Origin: Liolophura sinensis
Lineage: Eukaryota; Mollusca; Polyplacophora; Chitonida; Chitonidae
Assembly: GCF_032854445.1 (NCBI RefSeq)
Contig: NC_088296.1
Coordinates: 17,103,485-17,167,484, forward strand
Length of the DNA stretch: 64,000 nucleotides
Direction of reading: 5' to 3'
The notes below the pieces were generated by a model. The model worked only from the letters and a program-made list of their open reading frames with translations, was not told the DNA's origin and searched no databases. The position numbers were made by a program, and so were the translations under genes. This document shows, one piece after another, positions 12,641 through 63,343 of this stretch. How positions within the stretch are numbered: position 1 is the stretch's first letter; each line of letters starts with the position of its first letter.

Positions 12641-12649
12641 TTTATGTAT

Positions 12650-13230
12650 TTATTTGATTGCTGTTTTTTACGCCGTACTCTAGCATGTATCACATATACG
12701 ACGGCGGCCAGAATAATGGTGGGAGTTTTTTTTTTTTTTTTTTTGATTGGTGTTTTACGCCGTACTCAAGAATATTTCACTTATACGACGGCGGCCAGCA
12801 TTATGGTGGGATTTTTTTTTTTTTTTTTGATTGGTGTTTTACGCCGTACTCAAGAATATTTCACTTATACAACCGCGGCCAGCATTATGGTGGGATTTTT
12901 TTTTTTTTTTTTTTTGATTGGTGTTTTACGCCGTACTCAAGAATATTTCACTTATACGACGGCGGCCAGCATTATGGTGGGTGGAAACCGGGCAGAGCCC
13001 GGGGGAAACCCACGACCATCCGCAGGTTGCTGGAAGACCTTCCACTTACGAATTATGGTTGGAGGAAACCAAACCGAGTCAGGATGAAACCCACCCGCAG
13101 GTTTGTTGGGAGACCTTCGAATGTTCGGCCGGAGAGGAAGTAGCATGAGTTGGACATGAACTCACAGCGACCGCTGTTCCTGGGTCATTACGCTGAGTTA
13201 GCGCGCTAACTAACTGAGCCACGGAGGCCC
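12650..13230 (-). mobile_element. SINE-A copy with a four-fold tandem tail
   Basis: On the minus strand this is a tRNA-headed SINE. The head (GCCTCCGTGGCTCAGT) is near 13230, followed by the core and then the tail. The tail segment of about 80 bp (GCCGCCGTCGTATAAGTG, CTTGAGTACGGCGTAAAAC, then an A run) is present four times in tandem between about 12655 and 12985. The outermost copy is the most diverged. Open frames of 147-161 codons across it are by-products of the repeated tail. Confidence 0.85.
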
Positions 13231-13785
13231 CTACGTATAATTGGTTTGGCAGTAAAGTTTAAAGGAGAAATGGTTACCTTTACCTACACATTGTAGCCAA
13301 CAGCTATATATCCCTTGAATAGGATTTAAAAAGGTGACATCAAAGAACAAACATCTAGGTACTATATCTGCATAAGCGCAACATGGGCAACGATGTGGGG
13401 TTTTTTTCAACGTCCTCTTACTAAGAAACCCTCCAAAAGCCGCATATTGCAGGCTATGGGAGTAAACAACTTGCGCTCGATGATGGCAGACATCTCCGAT
13501 GATGCCGGACTCAGCGTTACACAAACCACTGTCTTCTCACCTCTGTAGCTACAGTTCTGAGCCACGCTGGTGTTGTCAATAACTGCCACGTGTCTCGCCC
13601 TGACTGGGTGATTTATTTCCCACCAATTCCATTGCATGGACTTGCCCAGAATCATAACAACACAACCCAGACTCAAAAAAGAGAGGGCGGTTATTTTCGG
13701 TGTTATGTTTCCCTCTTATGCCTCCATTAGTTTATTATGGTATGTCAGACTAGAAATAATACATAGATTGCCATACTCAATTCAC
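13231..13785. other. Intergenic, nothing recognised
   Basis: No repeat or gene motif was identified. Confidence 0.35.
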
Positions 13786-13876
13786 CTAGATAATGCACGA
13801 CAGACGGGAGTTATTCACTATTTGAGAACGAGGGGCCCGGTCAGTGGACAACTCCCGTCTGCTGTCCATTATCTAG
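13786..13876. repeat. Inverted repeat, 27-bp arms, 37-bp loop
   Basis: Arms at 13786-13812 and 13850-13876 share CTAGATAATG and the block AGACGGGAGTT in inverted order, with a few mismatches in the middle. It is probably a small foldback element or its remnant. Confidence 0.7.
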
Positions 13877-15055
13877 CTAATTTGATCGTGGCAAACTACG
13901 TTTTATTTCTCATTGTTTATTGACCTGAAGTTTGATATGCATATAAAGCACAATGGTGTAGGAATGTTCCATCGCTGACGTTCTGTGAGCATATTAATTA
14001 CCGTAAATAATAATGTTCACAATTTCAATTCTTTATGCATTGAGCCGAATTTGTGTATTCATGTGTCCCATACAGACCAGCTCTTTGGTAGTCTTGCTAC
14101 CAATTCTAAGTTTATTTCACAGTTTGATTCTCCAGTTTCTTTAATTTGTTTAACAAATTTGAACGTTTCAACTGGGTTAATAGAGGCCTTTAGTTAGAAG
14201 TTCCAAGTTGTAATTTCTAACTTCAAACTACAATTAGTTTACTAACTAATGGTCTCTATTATGGTCACCTTGTTGAGATCTCACTTTATTGCCATGCAGC
14301 GCACGTGTAAGTTCTACAAAGGATAGCTAGATCGTTCTTTCAAGAAAGAAGGAAAAGAATATAGCCTATAATCTGAAACATGGAATCTCTTGATATTACA
14401 TTTGCTCAGGTAGTATATGACTTGTTTTATTCAACAATTAAACCGCGTACACAGCTCTTAGGAATAGAAGTGTATTGAGTTCGAACTCTTTTAGCGCTAA
14501 CGGTTAAACGTGTCATAATGTATCATGCCAAAAAAAGTTTAGGCAACTACTGTGGATAACATTTGCTATAACACGAGCGTTTGAACAATAATCACTAAAA
14601 CATAATTAGAACAATCATGAACTTTGAGGAACTGAAAATATGTGAACTTTAGAAGTTTCTGTATAAAGTCACATGATACAATAGGACTGTGTTCACCTCT
14701 GGTGAAAAAAGAGTTCGAACTCGAAACTCCCCTATTGAGCTTGACAATCTTCTTGGGTAGGAAATCAGGTTAAGTGGTTAGATCCAGTGAAGCAACACTA
14801 GAAGTAGGTCGGCCTACTATAAACTAATATTAATCAGACGAAAGAGTGCGAAAATTTATTTGTAAATGTGGTCTTCAATATTTTCTTCGATTTTTCTTGA
14901 AAGAGAAAAAGACGCATGAAAATGATTTTTGTATGGGGGGGGGGGGGTATTTGGGACCACATCTTGGTATATATTGTATTTGCGCAATTGTGCTATCAAT
15001 GGGGATGTAACAAATGTTTAATATATGTACTGGAATTTGGCCAATAAATGTGTTA
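13877..15055. other. Intergenic with one short inverted repeat
   Basis: The 16-mer GAGTTCGAACTCTTTT at 14477-14492 is present as its reverse complement at 14707-14722. Half of that 16-mer is itself a palindrome. Otherwise only short open frames and a G run near 14935. Confidence 0.4.
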
Positions 15056-18074: not shown

Positions 18075-18739
18075 TCATGGCATTTCGCTGTAGTATTTTT
18101 TGACCCTTATTTGCATGTATCCGCCTTGAAGTGGCTGGCTTCCATAATTGTATAAATAGTTGAGCCGGGGTACGTTTGTTTTCAACAAAGGTCCGTTGAG
18201 ATTGGCCGCAGTACAGTCCTCAGCAAACCACCAGCCGGCTTGAAATGTCGTTGTACAGTCGTTGCTGACGTCGTTGTCATAGGTGCTGAACGGTTTGCCG
18301 TTAATGTTACGTCGTGGGTCGATGCTCGGTGTCAGGGAGTCGCCGTCCATTGTACCTGGGCGATAAGGTCCCAGATGTATAGCGTAGCGCTCGGTTTCGT
18401 TCCCCACATATATCGAGTCGTAGTAAACAAATTTGAAAGATTCTCCGTATAGCGCTACTCCGACTTCCACTTCGTACTCTCCTTGTCGTGTGATTTGATG
18501 AATATACTCGTTCCCAATCCAGAAGTCCTTGTACCTGTTCCCGAATCCTTCTTTGTACGCCTGCCAGGTCTCCACAAAGCTCGGTTTAGGATTAGCCCAG
18601 TAGCTTCTAAATGTCAAATGGGTCATACCGCCAGTAGCGTGGTTGTTACATTTCACACGGAATGGGTGTGGTGAGTCCTTTGGTTGGATGTAAAATTCTT
18701 GGGTTACCCGAATCCGATCGATGTGCCCTTCAGAACAAT
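18075..18739 (-). CDS. PAN-EGF-FReD gene A, exon 3: fibrinogen-related domain
   Basis: The exon is open from a TTTTCTG/CAG-like acceptor at 18740-18741 to TGA at 18075-18077. It starts with two bases of a split Asp codon and encodes 220 further residues. Family marks are the start DCSEG, FWIGNEYIHQIT, the Asp-rich calcium-site region STYDNDVSNDC, and GWWFAEDC followed by NLNGPL. Four cysteines fit the two disulfides usual for FReDs. Secreted FReD proteins (ficolins, tachylectins, molluscan FREPs) often bind acetylated sugars on microbes; binding by this protein is inference. It joins to exons at 19634-19733 and 32451-32786, giving a 366-residue product. Length and splice phase equal those of gene D (48973-49637). 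The intron just upstream carries a tandem array derived from this exon's acceptor. Confidence 0.9.

Positions 18740-20044: not shown

Positions 20045-20119
<75 letters not shown>
20045..20119. repeat. (AT)n microsatellite
   Basis: A 75-bp uninterrupted AT dinucleotide run in intron 1 of gene A. Confidence 0.95.
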
Positions 20120-20121
<2 letters not shown>

Positions 20122-25116: not shown

Positions 25117-25335
25117 ATTTGATTGGTGTTTTACGCCGTACTCGAGAATATTTTACTAATACGATTGCGGCCAGCATTATGGTGGGTGGAAACCGGGCAG
25201 AGCCTGGGGGAAACCCTCGACCATCCGCAGGTTGCTGACAGACCTTCCCACGTACGGCCTGAGAGGAAGCCATCATGAGCTGGACTTGAACTCACAACGA
25301 CTGCATTGGTGAGGGTCATCACGCTCCGCTAGCGG
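25117..25335 (-). mobile_element. SINE-A copy, head damaged
   Basis: The tail (GATTGGTGTTTTACGCCGTA on the plus strand) and core are clear. The tRNA-like head breaks off after a short CGCTAGCGGA-like stretch. Confidence 0.85.
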
Positions 25336-25883
25336 ATGACGCTCACTTACTGATGACGCTTCACTTGACCTGTATATGTGATATCACTACGCGGTTAGAC
25401 GTCGGCGCAGTTTCCGAAAAGTTTAAATCGTAATAATTTTTTTCCGCCACAAATTTACGGTAAGGCATTTATGGCACAAATAAGATATGAAATTCGTGAC
25501 CCTCCACATCAAATTTATTAAACTCAAGTAGCAGCTTGCATTTGTTCCTTGCAGGAGTCTCGAAATGAATACTACTCTCGTTTAATAAATTTGATATCTT
25601 CGGGTAACTCATTACATTATCAGGAACGTATCAAGGGGGATGACCACCCCCTCCACCCCACCCCACCCTTTCAAAAGTTGGGCACCAAGCCCCCCCCCCC
25701 CCCCCCCCCCACTTTTGAGGTTCCGGAAATTGTATGTACTTGTAACACAAACAGGACCCTTCGCCGAATAAAACATCACACTAATGCGAATATATTTTCT
25801 CGGTAAACTAAATATGGTAAACTACAATTTTCCCAGGATACATTACTACTAATATAGGGCCTACATGCTTTTTCCTCCTTGAG
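25336..25883. other. Intron 1 of gene A, poly-C run
   Basis: It holds a C homopolymer at 25690-25710 and otherwise no recognised feature. Confidence 0.4.
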
Positions 25884-25966
25884 CCACCCACCATAATGCT
25901 GGCCGCCGTCGTATAAGTGAAATATTCTTGAGTACGGCGTAAAACACCAATAAAATCAAATCAAAT
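25884..25966 (+). mobile_element. SINE-A 3' fragment
   Basis: Only CCACCCACCATAATGCTGGC through the tail is left. Confidence 0.8.
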
Positions 25967-26653: not shown

Positions 26654-28535
26654 TCAAAAGTGTGTGTGTGAATTATTGAATATAGAAAATCCCAGCTTTT
26701 TTAATACGAACTTCCAAAGAGTTATCATCTGCGAAGTTTAGGCCTAAATATTTGACAAAATTAGCGTATAATAACAATTAATAGTGGGTAAAAGTGTAGG
26801 ACTACACATAGGGCGTACAATCTCTCCCATAGCCCGACTGGCGTTTTTTAAACGTTTTTTTACTATTATTATTGTTTCGAATCAAATACAAACGGCAGTT
26901 AAAGAATAAAAAAAAAATACATACAGATACAATCTCAAGACATAGGGCCTATATATATTGACGAGAAAGGGATGGCCGTGAATCGAAAGCAAGCCAGCGC
27001 GAATAGGCCAGCAAGTTTACCATGACAAAGCCCAGTAAAAACATGGATGTTTCTTCCCACCGATTTTCCTCCATACGAGTTAAATGCTTGCATTAGTCAA
27101 TCTACACCAACCTTTCCCCGACATGCATAAATTTAATGCTGGATTCTGGATAAATTATTACAATGTTCTTTATTGTCCCGTGGTTCTCCAGGCAAAAGCG
27201 TCAAGAATTGAGCTAAACGTCTATTTCAATTTTTTCAGGCAGGCTTAAATAGTCAATAAAACCTCAATTGGCATATCTAAGATACTACACAACCCACTTT
27301 ATTGGTGAAGCGGAGAGATACTCACAGAAATAACGACAAACTAGGATGCATCGAAAGTGGCTTATGGAACAGTTTGCATATTACGTAATTCGAAATAAAT
27401 AAGAACGGGTATAGAGAACTTTTTAAGTATTTATAAAAAAAAACTCTAGCGTTTCTAAAGCCAAGACAGTGAGGAGGGTGATTCGGCAGACTAATTGTTT
27501 GATATTTATTTTGAAAATCCGACTTGAAGAATGGCTTTTATCTAATGGTCTATCTACTTTAAGTGAAAAAGTCTCAGAAAGTTTCAGATATAGGTCTACC
27601 TTTTTTATGATAAAAAAGGAACTGGATTTAAGTGACATGCGCCAAGAGGCGCGTTATAGATGTCCACCTAAATAATAAACTATATATATTGGCGTTACCA
27701 AGGAGCGTGGAACAGAGCGCGTGATAGTCAGGGTGTTGTCTAGCAGCTGCCAGTAACAACGAGACTCAATTGTCAGACAAGTTGGAAGGTATCACTGAGC
27801 ATGTTCGGAAGTCGCAGGTTTATGGCTTTCATATCTGCTCTACAAACGTTCATACTTTTTGTTCTCGTAATTTCCTATCTCAAGTGTATTTCAAGAATGT
27901 CAATGCCCACTTAGGCGTACTTCTTCAAACTGACACATGCATATATGAAGTCGGTAACAATGCTATTTTGCGATCAATGCACGGTGTGGACAGCTTCTCA
28001 TCAGTACAACGCCTATCATAAATGACAAACACAAAACAACACAACAACAACACAATGGCAGTTCACCCAGGCACTACGATGCCTTCCATTTACATTCCGA
28101 TAAACAATACATATGATTGACGTTTTAACTAAATGCACTTGTTGTTAGACAGAAAACAGTTTTCGTAGAATATGACCGTCGAACAAAACATGTCGGAAAC
28201 ATGTCATGAAAATAAAAAAAAAACACAATAAACAAACACACGGTCGATACGCTATGGTGAAGATCAATTTTATTAATGACTTTTGAACAGATTATCGTTT
28301 TCTGCATTACCAATTTACTTAAAAAATATGATTAATTCTGTCGATGCTTTTTATGCAGACTTACAAAGTACACCAACCTGGGTTTAATGACTTCAGAGAA
28401 TAATAAATGAACTGAATACATTCACCCGTATAAGCAATAATCGAAAAAGAATGGTTTTAGAAAGACTGCGATGAACATAGATCATTTGGATGCAATGAAG
28501 ACTTTTAACATTACACCTTGTGAACTGTCAAATTC
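26654..28535. other. Intron 1 of gene A, nothing recognised
   Basis: AT-rich with short open frames only. Confidence 0.35.
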
Positions 28536-29734: not shown

Positions 29735-29966
29735 GCATAAGCGGCAGAGTTAACGCCTCTCACCTATGCGGTCACGATAAGTTCAAGTCGAGATCATGCT
29801 GGCTTCTCCGGCCGTACGTGGGAAGGTCTGCCAACAACCTGTGGATGGTCGTGGGTTTCCTCCAGGTTCTACCCGGTTTCATCGCAACATAATACTGGCT
29901 GCGGTCGTTTAAGTGAAATGCTCTCGAGTACGGCTTAACACACCAATGAAGTAAATAAATAAATGA
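29735..29966 (+). mobile_element. SINE-A copy, old and diverged
   Basis: It is recognisable from CACCTATGCGGTCACGA through GGATGGTCGTGGGTTTCC to the tail and (AAAT)n. It interrupts the minisatellite with GTAGAC-type units on both sides. Confidence 0.85.
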
Positions 29967-32053: not shown

Positions 32054-32450
32054 TTTGCTTACATTTACAATAGCATGGGCGTCGGAAAAAGTTTCACAAC
32101 AAAATATTTAGAATAGACGAAAGATGGAGAAAACTGAGGAGATGAACGTATGTGAAATTCAAAAGGAAGAAGTGTCATTTAGGACTCGGGAAGACGGCGA
32201 GATAAGTGACCAGGCGCATTTTTTTTTTATTTCTGGCTGGTGCTAATTTCCAACAGCCATCGAATGTATGATCTGCTTAAATATTCAAATATTTCACGAA
32301 AAATACATAGAAATGGACGTTATTAGTTGCTGATATATTAACATTGTAGTTGTATAACTTGAAATGAAATGCGTTTTGGTAAACAGAGAAAAAGATCTTG
32401 TAAAGGAAGTTGTGTCGGACGAGTCTCTTTTGAACGTGATTTAGTCTTAC
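32054..32450. other. Start of intron 1 of gene A
   Basis: AT-rich and without repeats beyond a T run near 32220. Confidence 0.4.
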
Positions 32451-32786
32451 CCTTTCATAATATCGGCACTCCGACGGGCGTAGCTCTGACCTCACCGCCC
32501 TACGCTTGAACATCTCACACCTGGCGGGATATCCTTGATATGTTCTCTGACAGACATTAAAAGACATGCAGACAGTCTGGTGAAGGCAGTGTATGGAACA
32601 TTCCAGGAAAGAACGTGTTCCCAGTAACGTCACTTCATCGTTCAGATCTACCAGTTCTTTCCGTGTGTTGGCAAAAGACTTAAAGTTGGTAATGTCTAGA
32701 GCTCCCCTCGATGCTTTGAAAGCCCTTACTGGTATAGTCATCCACAGACAGAAGTAAGCAACGACTCCGAACCAAAGTGCCGCCAT
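32451..32786 (-). CDS. PAN-EGF-FReD gene A, exon 1: signal peptide and PAN/Apple domain
   Basis: The start codon is CAT at 32784-32786 on the plus strand; the exon ends at 32451 before donor GTAAGA. The 112 codons encode a hydrophobic N-terminus (MAALWFGVVAYFCLWMTIPV) that looks like a signal peptide of about 22 residues. A PAN/Apple-type domain follows at about 33-112. Its six cysteines are at 63, 67, 73, 79, 90 and 107, and it closes with CRYYER. Gene D has the same cysteine spacing. PAN domains bind proteins or carbohydrates. The exon ends in phase 0, fitting the EGF exon at 19733, so intron 1 would be about 12.7 kb. I chose it over the closer but broken copies because it is the only intact PAN exon between pseudogene B and FReD exon A. 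The long intron is inference, since no transcript is available. Confidence 0.85.
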
Positions 32787-34102: not shown

Positions 34103-34439
34103 CCCAATTTAAAATTTAAATATGGAAATTATCATTTTATACTTCGATACCAAACTCTAGCATTTACCAAAAAAGCAGCTTAATTTCCACATGATGATTT
34201 CAGATTTTTGAAAAAATATATTCAAAGGTTAATTTTAATTTTTTTCTTTTACAATGGCTAAAATTAGTGGTCTGCCCAAATATAAGTTTAAATCCCATCG
34301 TAGCATGATAAAGAGATTTTCGGTCATTTTATTAACGCTTATTCTATCTGCCTGTAATAGCTGTTCTTCAATATTTGCATGTAGGCCAGACTCAGACTGT
34401 CGTTCCCAGAATGATATAGCCATGTGACTTTTGCCAAAC

Positions 34440-34950
34440 CAGGATAAAACCAGTTATTATTCGCCCGAAACACCAGCCGGGTTGGCATGTCGCCGAGCAG
34501 TTGTGGGTGACGTCTTTGTCAAATGTGCTGACTGATTTGCAGTTGATGTTACGCTGTGGGTCATGGATCAGTGACCTCTCTGAAAGAACCCAGGTACAGG
34601 ATATAACGCTCAGTTTCGTTTCCAACAGATAGCTGTTTGTAGAATGCATACTTACGCCATGCTTCGCCACTCCAACATCCAGTCTGTACACGCCTTGCTT
34701 CGTGATCTGGTGTAAGGACACGTTGCCAATCCAGAAAGTGTTGTAGTGAGCTCCGAACTGTTCTTTATACGCCTGCAAATTTTGACATAAGTTTGGTAAA
34801 GGTATCTGCCACATGGCGCTGGGCATTATGTACGTCATCCCGAAAAAGGCTCTGGTTGTTGCAGAAGGCCTGGAATGGTCCCCGGAAATCCTCAGGTTGG
34901 ATGAGGAAGTATTCGAATGCCCCAACACGATAGACGTAACTACCAGAGCA
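34440..34950 (-). pseudogene. PAN-EGF-FReD pseudogene B, exon 3 (FReD)
   Basis: FReD homology starts after AAAG at 34951-34954 with CSGSYVYRV and runs to GWCF. The reading frame changes at least three times: before GMTYIM, near the LSVGNETERY block, and after GWCF. FWIGNVSLHQITKQGVY and the calcium-site region STFDKDVTHNC are still visible. The C-terminal part after GWCF is lost. Upstream pieces of the same copy are at 37461-37558 and 38100-38434. Confidence 0.85.
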
Positions 34951-35002
34951 CTTTCAAGAGAACACGTGTACATGTAGGATAGGAAAGAGAATTCTTCACT
35001 GA

Positions 35003-35172
35003 TGTCTTGTAGAAACGTCACTAATGTCTTGTGGAAACGTCACTGATGTCTTGTAGAAATGTCACTGATGTCTTGTAGAAACGTCACTGATATCTTGTAG
35101 AAACGTCACTGATGTCTTGAGGAAATGCCACTGATGTCTCGTAGAAATGTCACTGATGTCTTGTAGAAACGC
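35003..35172. repeat. Minisatellite, unit 22 bp, about eight copies
   Basis: Unit GTCACTGATGTCTTGTAGAA plus AC, just upstream of the FReD exon of pseudogene B. The matching place in pseudogene C (about 42795-42825) has a single diverged copy, TTCATTGATGTAAAGTAGAA. Confidence 0.85.
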
Positions 35173-41818: not shown

Positions 41819-42261
41819 TAAATCCACATCGGCGGATACCTGAGGTAAGGTAAACGCCATTGAATTAAAACGAATGGAAATAATACGAGGGAAAATTTTA
41901 GAATCTTGGAAGAGGCATCTTTAAACAAAAGTTAAAAATGTGTAATATAATATATTGTTGGCGTTGTTATACCAAGAAAGAAATGCAGGCCGTGCGGAGG
42001 CAACCTGTTCAACAAGCAAAAATCAAAGTGGTACTATTAAAAGTAATACATCAGTTAGAAAATTTGGTGTCATCATACGCCAAATACATATGCACCTAGC
42101 GTAATATGAATCTTTATCAACTTTAAAACAAGATCACACAGGATTTTGCTCATTAATTTAGAGTTACAAGAGCAGAACTTTCGACTTCCGGGAACTTTTC
42201 CGTAGTTCCGGGAAAATGTCTGAAAACATACCCACGCTTTCACACATATTCCACATTTGTC

Positions 42262-42756
42262 AAGAGGCCCGTTTAGATTGGCCGCTTTACAGTTCTTGGC
42301 GAACCACCAGCCGGCTTGGAATGTCGCCGAGCAGTTATCTCTGACGTCGTTTTCAACAGTGCTGAACGGTTTGCCCTTAATGTTGCTCGGTGTCAGGGAA
42401 TCCTTGTCACACATGTCCGTGATATAATTTCAGAGGTACAGGGCGTAGCGATCATTCTTGTTACCAACAGATATATGTTTATAAAACCAACTCTTGAATA
42501 TATCAAAGGGCGCAACTCTAACATATAGCAGGTATACCCGTATCTCCTAATGTGGTGCATACCCCTTCTATACACGCCTGCCAGTTTTGATAGACGTCTG
42601 ATAAAGGTTTCTGCCATCTGATCGTGTACATTATGTAAGTCATCCCACCAACGGCTCTGTTGTTACAGAATACCTGAAAAGGTCCCGACGAATGTTTAAG
42701 TTGGGTAAGGTAGTATTCTTTGGTGTCAACACAAAAGACGTTGCCTTCAGAGCAGT
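42262..42756 (-). pseudogene. PAN-EGF-FReD pseudogene C, exon 3 (FReD)
   Basis: The acceptor CCAAG at 42757-42761 and the start DCSEGNVFCVDTKEYYL are fine. The frame shifts first after NWQACIEGV and again before SLTPSN, where a block is also missing. KGKPFSTVENDVRDNC and GWWFAKNCKAANLNGPL are readable in the last frame. After NLNGPL the sequence no longer matches genes A or D, so the C-terminal 35 or so residues are lost or replaced. Confidence 0.85.
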
Positions 42757-48972: not shown

Positions 48973-49637
48973 TCATGGCATGTCGCTGTAATAACTTTTA
49001 GCTTTTATTTGCATGTAAACTCCAGTTATCCTATCGGTTCCAAAAGGATATTGCCAATAGACTCGCGGTGAATTCGGATAACTTAACGGTCCATGTAGAT
49101 TAGCCGCCGTACAACCTTCAGCGAACCACCAGCCGGCCCGCAGTGTTGCAGCGCAGTTATCACTTACGTCGTCGTCATAGGTGCTGAATGGTTTGCCGTT
49201 CATGTTACGCTGTGGGTCATTGCTCGGTGTCAGGGAATCCCCGTCAAATGAGCCCATAAAATAAGGCCCGAGGTGCAGGGCGTAGCGCTCACTTTCGTTT
49301 CCAACAGATATCTGTTCGTAGTAAAGATACTTGAATTCTTCCGGGTAGCGAGCCACTCCGACTTCCAGTTCGTACACCCCTTGTCTCGTGATCTGATGCA
49401 GGTGCTCGTTGCCAATCCAGGCGTTCACGTAGTGAGTTCCGAACCCTTCTTTATACGCTTGCCAGTTCTGGTAAAAATCTGGTCTGGGAAATTCCCATTC
49501 AGTCCTGTGCATAATGTAAGTCATTCCACCGTCTACCTGATTGTTACAGTGGACCTCGAACGCTTCCGGCGAATCCTTAGGCTGAATGAAGTATTGTTCC
49601 CTTTTCCCTACACGATCAATGTAGCCTTCCGAACAGT
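48973..49637 (-). CDS. PAN-EGF-FReD gene D, exon 3: fibrinogen-related domain
   Basis: The exon begins after TTTTCAG with two bases of the split Asp codon and runs 665 bp to TGA, the same length as in gene A. It encodes DCSEGYIDRV and onward to YYSDMP. Domain marks are FGTHYVNAWIGNEHLHQIT, VGNESERYALHLGPY, STYDDDVSDNC at the usual calcium site, and GWWFAEGC followed by NLHGPL. It is clearly paralogous to gene A but well diverged from it, so the duplication is not recent. Together with 51951-52071 and 53337-53669 it gives a 372-residue secreted protein. A sugar-binding, lectin-like role follows from the family and is not shown by the sequence. Confidence 0.92.
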
Positions 49638-53262: not shown

Positions 53263-53336
53263 AAATAAATATGAAAATAAATGAAAGTATGAGAAAAATG
53301 GAAACAGCCTTTACAATGTATTTAATGGTGCCTTAC

Positions 53337-53669
53337 CCGTTCATAATATCTGCACAATGACGGGATTAACTTGGGATGCGCAACCCTCTTCTTGAACAGC
53401 TCACACGTGACGGGGTATCCTTGAAGATCTCCAGGACACGCATTAAAAGACTCGCAACCAGGCTGCCGGAGACAATATACTGAACACTCCGTCGCAGACC
53501 TGGTACGAAATGACGCTACTTCCTCAGAGCTCGAAGCATCGCCCTCCATGTTCACAAACAATCTAAAATTTGCAATGTTTGCAAGTAAATGAGAATTACC
53601 AAGCGCTGCCAGGGATAACGTTGTGCAAATGCAGAGATGAACAGTGAATACGAGACACAGCTTCATCAT
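53337..53669 (-). CDS. PAN-EGF-FReD gene D, exon 1: signal peptide and PAN/Apple domain
   Basis: Two adjacent ATG codons at 53664-53669 start the frame; I take the first. The 111 codons end at donor GTAAGG (53331-53336). Residues 1 to about 21 (MMKLCLVFTVHLCICTTLSL) form a signal peptide. The PAN domain covers about 30-111, with cysteines at 62, 66, 72, 78, 89 and 106 in the same spacing as gene A, and closes with CRYYER. The phase-0 end fits the EGF exon at 52071, about 1.3 kb away, so this copy is compact at the 5' side. It is the first of the four tandem copies in transcriptional order and the best-supported complete gene in the window. Confidence 0.9.
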
Positions 53670-56428: not shown

Positions 56429-57090
56429 ATAATGTCAAATAGTCTGGAGTACAGGATAAAACTGCCGTCAGATTCAACAAATGAATAAACTTGTCTATGT
56501 AAAATGCGGGAACATTCGTCTGCTGTAGCTCATCAGCAATCAGGACAAATCTGGCATATCGATTACTACCTTGTCAATATTACAGAGACGAAAGTCTATG
56601 TTTATGATGTTAAATATTATTGAACGCCCATTGACTTTATATTTGACAATTACACCTACTGTAAACATCAGTAGTAGATTCTTATATGCATGAGCACAAT
56701 TTTCCCTTGGCCTATTGTGTAGAGGCTGGTCATGCTTTGCCAAAGTATTCATGGACACCTGAATAAAAATATACACTTCGATTTTTGGAATACGAACATT
56801 TAAATTCTTTTCGGTGGTAATTATAACAAAAGTCCCGTTTAGCAACCGAATTTAAAGGAAAAAATGAATTGTGCATCTTGAGGAGGGTTTTTGCTAACGA
56901 TTTTCTTTTCACCTGTTTACATGCAATCATGAAAGTCTGGAAAACAAAATGGGTTTTATTACTGATGAGTGTCGCTACTGACGCCATTGAGCTATTTATT
57001 ATTACATAAAGGTGAAATGTCAGGATTCCCATCACTGATAAATACAGATTATCATCACACTGTGATGATCTGCATCGTCGTATCTATTCG
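56429..57090. other. DNA downstream of the Crypton, one partial motif
   Basis: AT-rich without genes. At 57071-57086 is TGCATCGTCGTATCTA, a degenerate direct copy of the core of the left palindrome arm. Confidence 0.4.
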
Positions 57091-57167
57091 GGTTCTCTGC
57101 GGTTGCATCGCCGTATCGACCGACCCCGCAGGGCTCGGTCGATACGGCGATGCAACCGCAGAGAACG
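57091..57167. repeat. Perfect palindrome: 32-bp arms, 11-bp spacer
   Basis: Arms are 57092-57123 and 57135-57166 with no mismatch. The left arm begins GTTCTCTGCGGTTGC and ends CCGTATCGACCGA; the spacer is CCCCGCAGGGC, in which CCC and GGG can also pair. It lies about 20 bp beyond the stop codon of the Crypton recombinase. It could be a recombinase recognition site, an RNA hairpin at the 3' end of the transcript, or an unrelated small inverted repeat. Confidence 0.9.
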
Positions 57168-57186
57168 AGACGCTCATAGCGGAAGG

Positions 57187-58459
57187 CTATGTGACTGGTG
57201 CATTTGAAATGATGTGGCTCATCTTTTCCTGCATACCATGAGAAGCAACAGCGTAATTATTTACACTTGCAACATTTTTGTGGCCAGTGAGTTGCATAAT
57301 AGTCGTGGGAGCTATGCCAGCATGAAGGAGACGGGTACATATTGTTTTGCGGGCACCGTGGTTTGTCAAACGGCCAGGTAAGTTCGATCGTTATGCCATG
57401 GTTTTCATAATTGATTTTAGGGTGTGCTCTCCCATTGGTTTGCATTTGTTCCATACATTACTGCAAGCTTTTCTTCTGTAATTGTAATTGATGCCGAGGT
57501 AAAATGGATTGTCGGCTGTGCACATTTTTGGTAGCCTGTGGTCCTTGTAGACTTTGTACGCCTCTACCGGGCAGTCATCCTTGTTATCGAGCGCAAATTG
57601 TTGCGGCTGGAAGGGGCGGACATGCCTGTTTGGGTTTTCACCACTCCTCGTTTTAGTTTCGCGCTCATTGTACTCCAAGTATTCTGTCCCCTGTTCATCA
57701 CATTTTAAGGTCACATCTCCCCATCTGAGTATACGATTTTCTTCCCCTCCAAGAAGGGCAAAATGAAGGGAATTCATTAACCATATTTTGTTGACAAGTG
57801 CGCGCGGACTATGGTTCCCCATTACTTTATTTTCCTTCAGGATACATTGACCATTTTCTGTCAGCGGCTCAGCTCTGTTTGGTCTGTTCCCTTTGCCTTT
57901 CTGTTTGAACTCCTTGCGTTTTGAAGCAAGGATGTGACGCGAGGTTTGAAACTCTTTGTCAAAAATAAAGCTATATGCATAGTTACGCTCACGTAGATAG
58001 CTTTCTATGGCCCTGTGATAATTGGCCAGGGTGTCTGGTTCATACTCGCTACCGTCGTGTTTTCTCAGAGAGAGAAGGTACGATCCAACGTAATTGTTCA
58101 ACTGGACGGCTGGTATGTCCTCAATTTCTCGATCTTCTTCGCGAGGATGCTTGGCAGGAATCCAGAAAATATTCTGACTACGTTTTAAGTTTTCCGGACA
58201 GTGTTTTTGTTCCTCATTGACACGACAAACTCGATTTCTCCCTCTCACCGCATTCAACGAAAGTTGGCCTCCTGTTCGGAAATGACGCCCGTTTTCGGTG
58301 GTTGTCATGGGCGTCGGTGACCAAAATTTCCTGTTCGAAAGCATCTCCTCTAGCAAGAAAATCACCGTCATAGTCGGATAGCTGCTCACTGTCCCTGTCC
58401 GACCAAAATCCGAGTTCAAAATTTGCCATGTCTGAGTCACTGCTATTCTCAGCTTCCAT
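57187..58459 (-). pseudogene. Crypton-type tyrosine recombinase, slightly broken
   Basis: The frame starts at ATG 58457-58459 with an acidic N-terminus (MEAENSSDSDMANFE) and stays open to 58214. The main part is in a neighbouring frame and joins near 58215-58240, implying a one-base shift or a tiny intron. The main part resembles the Crypton-derived DUF3504/KIAA1958-like family: SEYEPDTLANYHRAIESYL in the N-terminal DNA-binding region, GKGNRPNRAE, and EYLEYNERETKTR. Catalytic residues of tyrosine recombinases are all visible: Arg in GGEENRILRWGD, His-x-x-Arg in NHGARKT, His in TGHKN and the nucleophile Tyr in NNYAV. A single in-frame TAA (57391-57393) separates MKTMA from RSNLPGRLTNHG; the frame is otherwise continuous to TAG at 57187-57189. 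Cryptons move as circular DNA by recombination. This copy cannot make a full protein unless the two lesions are bypassed. Confidence 0.85.
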
Positions 58460-59734
58460 AATGGCGAGGTTTGCACTGGTAATACTAACAGTATAGCACA
58501 GTTCCAAAGATAAACAGTTGCACTTTTCGGAAATCCAGAAATAATATAGCAGCAACAGCAAACATTTGAAAGGAGAACGAACAGGAAAAGACGAATTTAA
58601 ATATTTACAGGAGAAAACTTAATGTGCAGATGACTTGCAAACGTCTCGAGCTAGAAATCTGGCCTGAATCGACATCAACAGCTATCAGCGTTGCGGAATG
58701 TAATTTGGCGCCAAAAATCACGAAGCAGACGACACAAAAAATTGACGAAAATATTTGATTATAACCTGTTTGTACATAATGTTGGCATGTAGACAGTGTA
58801 GAAAAAATTTTATTATTTTTTCTGGGTCTTAAATTTAGGGAGAATAAATCGCATGTTCGTGTAAGTAGGTCAGCACTGCATGGAAATCCCCGTCGAGGAC
58901 CGCATGGCTTTCCCAAGGAAAGGTCACTCGGTGAGAAAGTAGTTCCGCGCGTGCAAAATGTGATGGTGATACAAAAAAATATCACGGGGCTCTGTATCAG
59001 GCGGATAACACGCATAGGTATATGATAAACGTCATGTGCCACTGGCTCAGTCAGATATCACTTTTATTGTTACACACCCAGACGCCATGACGTCAAAAAA
59101 GAAGCATTTTTTTAGACGTTCCAGTCCAAGCTCAGCGGAATTACGTAGCGTCACGCAAGGCACGGCGTCATACAAGACGTCATGTGCGACGTCACGCTAT
59201 ATCCACAGGTCTGTGAAGATAAAAACTTGTCCAAATACACAAAATCATGATATTATTAAAATATAAATAATAAATAGAATACAGCACAGTGAAGGTTGAA
59301 TATCACAAATCTCGAGAAAGGTGGAAATCAGTCGACGTTTCACGTGTCGTGGGTTATCATTTTCACTCGAAAAATATTCGTGATATTCAACCATCACCGA
59401 CACCGTGCAATGACCTCTATATGTTCACTTCTCAGTAGAAATGTTCTGAGCTTTACCCCTGTAATGATTGCCTGTAAATTAAAGAATCAACTCTGTCACG
59501 AACAGCAAGTGCTTGCTTAGGTAAAGACACGATGGGGTATCGGCAGATTTTCTTCTCACTAGTGGCGCTGGTGTGCACGCCACAAGTCTTTTGTTGTATG
59601 ACGCAAAACATGTTGCCTGCTGCGGTTTCATCTCTGACGTATTTGGTCTACCCACTGTGACGTCGCGCTCTTAACACTGCAGTGCATGGAATGTCCAGCG
59701 TCACTGAAATGACGTCATACGTTAAATGACGTTT
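58460..59734. other. Upstream of the Crypton frame, nothing recognised
   Basis: A 145-codon minus frame (58605-59042) has no family resemblance. The 5' end of the Crypton element must lie here but cannot be placed, as Cryptons have no long terminal repeats. Confidence 0.3.
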
Positions 59735-59801
59735 TCCCCGGGCTCTGTCGGGTTTCCTCCTACCATATATACAGCCTAAAACGCCAATAAAATAAATAAA
59801 G
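59735..59801 (+). mobile_element. SINE-A 3' fragment with internal gap
   Basis: CCCCGGGCTCTGTCGGGTTT is followed after a gap by CCTAAAACGCCAATAAAATA. Confidence 0.75.
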
Positions 59802-62336
59802 AAATAGAAAACAGTGTCCACGAATCTTTGCTTCCATTCGCTCTCTTTGGAACTGAATGAACCGATCGTGATAAACATCGAGAAGAAAACAGGACAAAGT
59901 ACCGTTTTTTTTCCATCAGGTAAATTGGAGTTTTATTGTATATGTAGAGTTTCACTGGCCAAGTCATTTAACAATGCTAGATTTCACAACATCACAACAG
60001 CATCATTACCAGTATTACATTCAATAACACATAGCCTAAAATATTTAATATCAAGTACAACCTTCCTATTATATCATATAAATATTACCAGGCCCGGGAA
60101 GACTCGTAACAACTGTACTCATATATTACTACCAAGATGACTTTGTTTAAACATTCATATATATTCTTATACTAAGACCCACCTTCGGCATACACATATT
60201 TGAGAACACCTGTCGGAGATTGAGGCGTTTCATTTAACACTTACTATTTAAACGTTTTGGCAGGATGTTTCCATCCAGCCCTTATTTTTGCCACGAAGAG
60301 AGATTTGAGATGATTTATTCTACAAACTTAAAAGGCGTTTAGGAGAAGGAACATGGTAAGTTTAATTGTAGAGAATATGGTTTACTCTTTCGCTCCAGGG
60401 CTTTTATTCTCTGCCAACATTACTGCAATGCAAGTGTAAAACGTCACCAATGGTCGAGCACTACGTCATGGAAAGGGAGAAATATCTATAAAAATGTAGA
60501 CAAATATATGATTATTTCAATTTGGGTTGCACATTTTCTGCTAGAATTACACAACAAGACAAGTGTAAAACGTCACAACTTGTTGAGTAACACGTCATAG
60601 GAAGGAAGAAACATCGCAAAACACAATTCAATCTTCGTAACAGGGAAATCTTAAATAGCCCTATATCTATGTAACATCTGTGACAATTGTAAACATCAAA
60701 AAGTTACATTCACCGTTGAAATCTACCACATTGTAAAGTACTGTCTTTCATTCAGTAGGCGTCTTTTTATGTATCTTATTTCACAAAGCTTGCATGTGTT
60801 TTTTGTAGTATGGTTGCGTACATACAAAGGGGAGATAATCCTCATTCCCTGGAGGGTTGTAAACAGATTTGGCTTTTAAACAACATAAATACAAAATGCA
60901 TCAATAATACCGACTGGTGAAAAAAACTTGAAAACAAAAATCAACAAAACAAAACAAAACATAATGAAACTGCGAGCCAGCACAGGTTTCGAAAGATAAT
61001 ACGGTATACACTGAAAACCAGTATTAAATACGAACTGTTTTTCCTTATCATATATCAAACAAACGGCAGTCAAATAATCATTATGCGCCTGAAACTAATA
61101 CAAAGACCCCAATCGGAGTTAATAAACTAACGTCAGTGTAAGCTCATCAGAGCTTGATCTATCATTTACCTCACTCATACGACATCATACAATAATCAAG
61201 AGTTTTGTTCAAACGGTTACTAAAGGCTTACATGTATTTTACGTTAGCCTGATTGCTTTCATCCCCTTTCCGAATCAGCTCTAATGAAACTGTGCCCTGT
61301 ATTTGCAAGCCGTTACACTTTTGGCGCATTCTGGCGTATAATGTTGCCCCCCCCAAAAAAAGAAAAAAAAATCTCGCTAACATAATTAACTCAAGCATCC
61401 ATTCTTTTCCGCTACCACAAATCTAACCTGTACAATAACATCCTACAATTTGTGCTTTTGGTGTACAAGTTTGCCAAATAACAAGAAACTAAATTCGTTA
61501 AAATAAGCTAGAAGTCATTCCCTTCTACGTCTACGTAAATACCGCATATTTTATCACCCAATACGCCACCCATTCCACGGAATTCGTGCAGTGATACATT
61601 TACGTAGGCTGTATTACATAACTTAATTACTCTCGCTTGCAGAAGAAAGCCCCGAATAATTCTTGTGTTAGCACAGCTCAGTCTCAGCTACACTGTTAAG
61701 GTGATGGAAACATAATTTAAACGCACACATTTCGCATACTGCACAAATCGTACATGCATGACGGTTTATTGTCATGCATTTTATTTCGATGGATAGATAG
61801 AAAAAAATATAAATTAACGATCTCCGATGGACATATTGTAAATCATGTAATATAATTATCCCATGCACAGATGTTATCATTAATCAAGTGACATGGATCA
61901 AATAAATAGTAGTCTGTCATGAGTTGTTTCCCCTTCACTCACCCTAGTTACAGGGTTACGTCATGGATAGCGCGTGACGTATATCACAGAAGGACGATTG
62001 TTCGCGCAACCAGTGAAACACAACCTAACATAAATGCATACAGCTATGTCACTATCACGAGCTATATCTATTAGAGTTTCTGACAGGTGGTATATGTCAC
62101 AGCATTTTCACCGGGATTGTAGGACTATACTGAAAATGTTGATTCAACAATTTTGTATCATTTTTTAGACTTTCCCAGCTCTCATTTTCGGATTGTCCCA
62201 CCGTTGAATGCTGCAGGTTCCACGTTATTTTCATCTCTCTGTTTTTTTTTGTTTTTTTTTTGTTTTTTTTTTTTGTTAAAGCCTACCTCCTCACAAATAC
62301 CGGTATTGCCATAGACTTGTTATTCCGCCATTTTGG
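59802..62336. other. P450 3' UTR and intergenic
   Basis: Nothing coding was recognised. On the minus strand AATAAA-type signals occur near 61765 and 61779, possible ends of the P450 transcript. Confidence 0.4.
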
Positions 62337-62618: not shown

Positions 62619-62743
62619 TTATTTACTTAATTGGTGTCCCTATGCTACACTCAAGAATATTTTACTTATACGACGGTGGTTAGCATTCTGGTTGAAGGTA
62701 ACCAATCAGAGCACGGGGAAAACCCAGGACAATCAATCGCTGG
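62619..62743 (-). mobile_element. SINE-A fragment in the last P450 intron
   Basis: The tail (ACACTCAAGAATATTTTACT on the plus strand) and the start of the core are present but diverged. It ends 26 bp from the exon donor at 62769. Confidence 0.75.
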
Positions 62744-62768
62744 AGATAAATCTTGATTGCCAGCTCAC

Positions 62769-62984
62769 CTTGATAGCAGCAACTTGTACATTCTGTTCAG
62801 CGAATCGCCTTCCCAGGCAATTTCGTACACCATGGCCAAATGGCAGAAGGATGTATTGGGAGAGTGGTGAGCGATACAGATGAGAGTTCTCTCCCCTTAG
62901 CCAGCGTTCTGGAATGTATTCGTCCGCGCGTTCGAAGTACTCTTCCATCCGGCACATTACAGCATTCTCCGGGAAAACAGGTGT
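62769..62984 (-). CDS. Mitochondrial-clan cytochrome P450, haem-binding exon
   Basis: The exon lies between acceptor CTCCAG and donor GTGAGC, exactly 72 codons in phase 0. It starts TPVFPENAVMCRMEEYF and holds YIPERWLRGE. The haem signature is LPFGHGVRNCLGRRFAE, with F-x-x-G-x-R-x-C-x-G and the thiolate cysteine in place. The double Arg after the Cys-x-Gly is typical of the mitochondrial P450 clan (CYP11, 24 and 27 in vertebrates; CYP10, 12 and related in invertebrates). Such enzymes sit on the inner mitochondrial membrane and take electrons from adrenodoxin. The substrate cannot be told from this part. Neighbouring exons are at 63344-63425 and 62337-62465. Confidence 0.92.
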
Positions 62985-63343
62985 CTGGAGTGAAACAGAT
63001 CGTGCAGTCATTAATACTATAACACAATGGCAATATTTTCCACATATATTAACGCAAACTTTCACAACGTTTGTTTGATTGTAATAGAGCGAAGAAAACG
63101 TTGAGCTATTCGAGAATTGGGAAATTCAAAGCAGTGTATACATACTGCAAAACTCGACTATCTGCTACCTAAACTTACCACATGTATAACAATGAGATTG
63201 TCTAATACCTCAAACAACTAACTGTACACAAACGACAAATACGAAATCATCTGCTACCTGGCATATCAGGATTATCTTATCCACAATACACCGTTTAATC
63301 ACTGTATTCGTAGGCCTATAGCACGAGCTTACTCTCCACTTAC
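62985..63343 (-). other. P450 intron
   Basis: AT-rich, bounded by donor GTAAGT (63338-63343) and acceptor CTCCAG (62985-62990). No repeat was recognised. Confidence 0.7.

Follow-up and report, generated by a model that had tools for sequence, protein, structure and literature searches.

A perfect 32-bp palindrome next to a broken Crypton-like tyrosine recombinase gene in Liolophura sinensis

The window analysed here, a stretch of 64,000 nucleotides from contig NC_088296.1 of Liolophura sinensis, carries a tyrosine recombinase gene on the minus strand and, just past its stop codon, a long palindrome with several small repeats beside it. The recombinase is represented by the following parts:

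57391..58476, minus strand: main open part of the recombinase (PF12012, DUF3504, 1.3e-17), ending in an in-frame TAA at 57391-57393
57187..57390, minus strand: C-terminal part of the recombinase (Phage_integrase, 4.3e-9), with H-x-x-R, H and Y; stop codon TAG at 57187-57189
58214..58561, minus strand: likely N-terminal part of the recombinase, in a different frame from the main part; a presumptive assignment

The initial annotation had placed a tyrosine recombinase beside the palindrome and had described its frame as broken, and both statements were upheld: Pfam identifies the minus-strand frame as DUF3504/Crypton-type, and a single in-frame TAA splits two parts that are otherwise contiguous. 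The N-terminal part likely sits in other frames; Pfam gave no match for the frame 58214-58561, and the N-terminal region, when read by the family pattern, presumably contains an additional stop besides two frameshifts. AlphaFold modelling of the recombinase from its sequence alone gave a mean pLDDT of 35.6, which is too low for use.

The DUF3504 match, by which the gene is filed as Crypton-like, suggests such an element, and its placement in subgroup A is provisional. In the excerpted text of a survey that includes two molluscs, Crypton is reported only from the cnidarian Nematostella, and Ngaro elements are given as numerous in the genome of a limpet (PMC4157794); with Ngaro so abundant in a mollusc, the gene could be part of some other type of recombinase element, and a Ngaro or DIRS origin is possible. 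No reverse transcriptase was named by Pfam in a set that consists of 11 selected frames of the window plus the joined recombinase and covers the flanks in part.

The recombinase had also been credited with a complete catalytic set, which the alignment does not bear out. The window protein, with X at the stop, was aligned with four plasmid integrases (two of them nearly identical) taken from the 12 listed among 127 plasmid records; it has H-x-x-R, the later H and the Y, and Arg I falls on Leu, the column reading GLR in three integrases, AMR in one and ALL in the window protein. The alignment has a one-residue gap near Arg I, and the G-D-V stretch that follows serves as anchor. Of the catalytic R-H-R-Y of Cryptons, H, the second R and Y are there, and the first R aligns with Leu.

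The 127 plasmid records were found with the C-terminal part (tblastn, E at most 1) at identities under 60%; the main part gave no match in phages by tblastn at E 0.01 and none in the PDB. The joined protein had six PDB matches at E at most 10, the best of them an 'Int protein' (6.6e-5) that covers the C-terminal part only. Protein scans of viral contigs with each recombinase part returned 3 and 11 pattern stretches, none confirmed by tblastn. A degenerate pattern for the H-x-x-R motif had no match in viral contigs and 14 stretches in prokaryote genomes, where tblastn of the window protein reached a best E of 0.39; a degenerate pattern for the Arg I region found 24 stretches in viral contigs, with tblastn E at most 1 in two cases (0.009 in L032, 0.05 in L026), both of which match mostly the C-terminal part, distant from the pattern match. 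Neither a 21-nt arm stretch nor the gapped core pair of the palindrome occurs in viral contigs, and the scans of viral contigs and prokaryote genomes, both non-animal collections, yielded no close relative. A literature text search for arm strings of 14-15 letters found no occurrence.

The surroundings comprise fibrinogen-C-like frames on one strand (minus; 18075-18656, 34392-35021, 42073-42414 and 48973-49524) and PAN-like frames (minus; 32277-32786 and 53322-53669), which are perhaps a tandem gene family. Pfam assigns 18075-18656 and 48973-49524 to the fibrinogen C-terminal domain above cut-off and 53322-53669 to PAN below cut-off; the likeness of the frames at 34392, 42073 and 32277 was judged by eye. 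A cytochrome P450 fragment lies at 62733-63065 (minus strand; PF00067, 9.4e-14, above cut-off). With these frames the window resembles animal DNA, and such a set of genes would suit a mollusc. One repeat family at 12649-12981 and 25122-25951 occurs as a tandem array and, as judged by common letters, in inverted fragments spaced by about 0.7-0.8 kb. Upstream of the recombinase, 59088-59194 holds one TGACGTCA and two copies with one mismatch; allowing up to one mismatch, TGACGTCA has 39 matches in the whole window (25.7 expected; shuffle maximum 38). A tRNA gene search of the window found none.

The palindrome and the small repeats around it are:

57092..57166, no strand: palindrome with exact 32-bp arms and an 11-bp spacer
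57071..57084, plus strand: third copy of a 14-bp arm core, with one mismatch, in direct orientation, the left-arm copy following 33 bp further on
57051..57069, no strand: small palindrome with 9-bp arms and a 1-nt spacer
57175..57191, no strand: inverted repeat with 6-bp arms and a 5-nt spacer, overlapping the recombinase stop codon

An inverted-repeat search over the window (exact arms, spacer at most 1000 bp) confirmed the arms as free of mismatch (57092-57123 and 57135-57166), and the distance of 20 bp (57167-57186) between stop codon and palindrome was likewise found as first described. The palindrome may also be written with 36-bp arms, one mismatch (97% complementary) and a 3-nt spacer, i.e. 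as a near-perfect hairpin of 75 bases. All other inverted repeats of at least 32 bp lie inside one AT microsatellite (20045-20120); that microsatellite aside, no exact inverted repeat of the window is larger than the palindrome. Its predicted fold is accordingly strong, with z -13.0 for 57060-57200 as RNA and z -12.6 for 57071-57191 as DNA, each with 0 of 200 shuffles as stable. In a fold scan of 3195 windows of 110 nt (20-nt step), the four lowest energies all belong to windows that overlap the palindrome, two of which contain it whole; the next strongest fold behind the overlapping windows is at 13781-13890 (-53.1 kcal/mol).

The degenerate third copy of the arm core at 57071 also stood up, with 13 of 14 letters identical. 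With up to two mismatches, the 14-bp core has three matches in the whole 64 kb, i.e. the two arms and 57071-57084, against 0.14 expected; two of the copies are direct and one is inverted, and the inverted cores are separated by 23 bp (57118-57140). The small palindrome at 57051-57069 may be due to chance, arms of at least 9 with a spacer of at most 8 being found at eight further places in the window (AT microsatellite omitted), and the 6-bp-arm repeat at 57175-57191 could be a chance product as well.

With 64% G+C, the palindrome exceeds both the recombinase frame (45%) and the 500 bp of the other flank (56571-57070; 34%). Its G+C is matched by 0.6% of 75-bp windows, and that of one arm by 1.8% of 36-bp windows. 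The palindrome contains 11 CpG, and the 75-bp windows overlapping it contain up to 13, the top count, tied with 8726 among the matches listed. This shift in G+C and CpG would suit the end of an element, a functional site and an insertion equally well. Random placement would bring the centre of a palindrome to no more than 60 bp from one end or the other of the frame with a probability of about 0.004, a post hoc figure in that the pair was chosen for its adjacency and the 60 bp were set after the distance was known; the adjacency favours a link between palindrome and recombinase. On the minus strand, AATAAA is found at 57000 and 56960, about 186 and 226 nt beyond the recombinase stop, which would place the hairpin within a transcript.

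The initial annotation had argued from a decayed frame and undecayed arms to recent origin or selection, and this step is not supported. Under a decay model with neutral divergence taken from two or four disabling changes (few events, whose counts depend in part on how the frame is read) and indel-to-substitution ratios assumed to be 0.1 to 0.2, 0.63 to 1.97 hits are expected in the 64 bp of arms, and the chance of zero is 0.14 to 0.53; for 72 bp, one hit or none has a chance of 0.35 to 0.84. The estimated decay thus leaves zero hits plausible, and the intact arms require neither recent origin nor selection.

The reading we tentatively prefer, at somewhat below an even chance, is that the hairpin is part of the 3' end of a CryptonA-like element, now dead, and that template switching created its arms or kept them matched. 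It is favoured because the palindrome, as the largest exact inverted repeat outside the AT microsatellite, is found 20 bp from the stop of the sole recombinase found. Hairpin and recombinase gene would have descended together, and template switching during replication would have copied one arm off the other, or re-matched both, which could yield like arms without selection; any action would be as a hairpin in the 3' region of the transcript or in single-stranded DNA, a candidate role. Template switching is described as creating and repairing perfect hairpin stems (PMC8794818), and for great apes the consulted excerpt gives a median of 12 and a maximum of 128 nt for the copied fragment (PMC7954356), so that arms of 32-36 are long yet within range. 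Against the preferred reading counts that the arms are richer in G+C than both flanks, which fits an insertion too. The assumed ratios and partly reading-dependent counts behind the decay estimate weaken it as well, as does the survey by which the gene could come from a different recombinase element (PMC4157794).

An independent insertion, i.e. of a small palindromic repeat or of a foldback element next to the gene, or else an unrelated local palindrome, is somewhat unlikely. The change in G+C and CpG at the arms, with so few windows as rich, would agree with it; a position 20 bp from the stop would be improbable at random (by the post hoc estimate above), and a by-eye look noticed no target-site duplication at the arm ends. 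It is very unlikely that the palindrome is a transcribed hairpin with an RNA role, as small-RNA precursor or in 3' processing. The very stable RNA fold would suit such a role, as would nine Rfam matches at E at most 5, seven of them microRNA rows (E 4.5e-7 to 5.3e-5); however, all nine, the microRNA rows included, are under the gathering scores, the default Rfam search of the window gave no match, and a long perfect stem would on its own inflate the scores of microRNA models.

The initial annotation had proposed a recombination site. On this account the palindrome is the recombination site or terminus of the element, and the recombinase, when active, would have attached to the repeated 14-bp core and made its cut within the palindrome or close to it; we consider this unlikely. 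In its favour, the palindrome adjoins a recombinase and one core occurs three times, two direct and one inverted, and known tyrosine recombinase sites, e.g. of the loxP/FRT type, are likewise inverted arms flanking a spacer (PMC3212892). The lengths do not fit: arms of 11-13 bp and spacers of 6-8 bp are given for such sites in the excerpted text of that source, against 32 and 11, or 36 and 3, in the palindrome, and with the inverted cores 23 bp apart the geometry speaks against a standard core site. The 5' side (58400-61000) is without a convincing copy. The best match there, of the left arm in direct orientation, is at 59620-59642 and was equalled by 2 of 60 shuffles, which preserved base composition only; it is not special, because 29866-29885 (direct) and 28241-28256 (inverted), two other places in the window, score the same. 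In the remaining five of the six arm comparisons on this side, the score was equalled by 15 to 45 of the 60 shuffles. The Leu at Arg I in this copy also stands against a recombination site, as does the statement, in the part of the 2011 survey consulted, that animal Cryptons are without terminal repeats (PMC3212892). That an animal Crypton lineage has its 3' terminus and recombination site in the palindrome and the repeated core is quite unlikely, and a palindromic terminus would, as the consulted text of this survey suggests, be a kind of end unreported for animal Cryptons (PMC3212892).

Among known systems, animal CryptonA elements resemble the locus in the PF12012 and Phage_integrase matches of the recombinase. 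They differ, going by the same excerpt, in being reported without terminal repeats (PMC3212892), where here a long palindrome lies past the stop and Arg I falls on Leu. Helitrons are of another enzyme family than the tyrosine recombinase here. The hairpin stem at the Helitron 3' end is far shorter than that of the palindrome. The likeness to Helitrons lies in the presence of a hairpin near the 3' end of the transposon (PMC4778049), and protelomerase target sites, as palindromic sites of a cutting-rejoining enzyme (PMC3558466), are a lead only.

If template switching alone produced the palindrome, the palindrome would illustrate how a long perfect stem can arise without selection. Animal Cryptons are described without terminal repeats in the survey text consulted (PMC3212892); if the palindrome held a fixed distance to the stop codon in many copies, it would be a candidate site for the ends of animal Cryptons.
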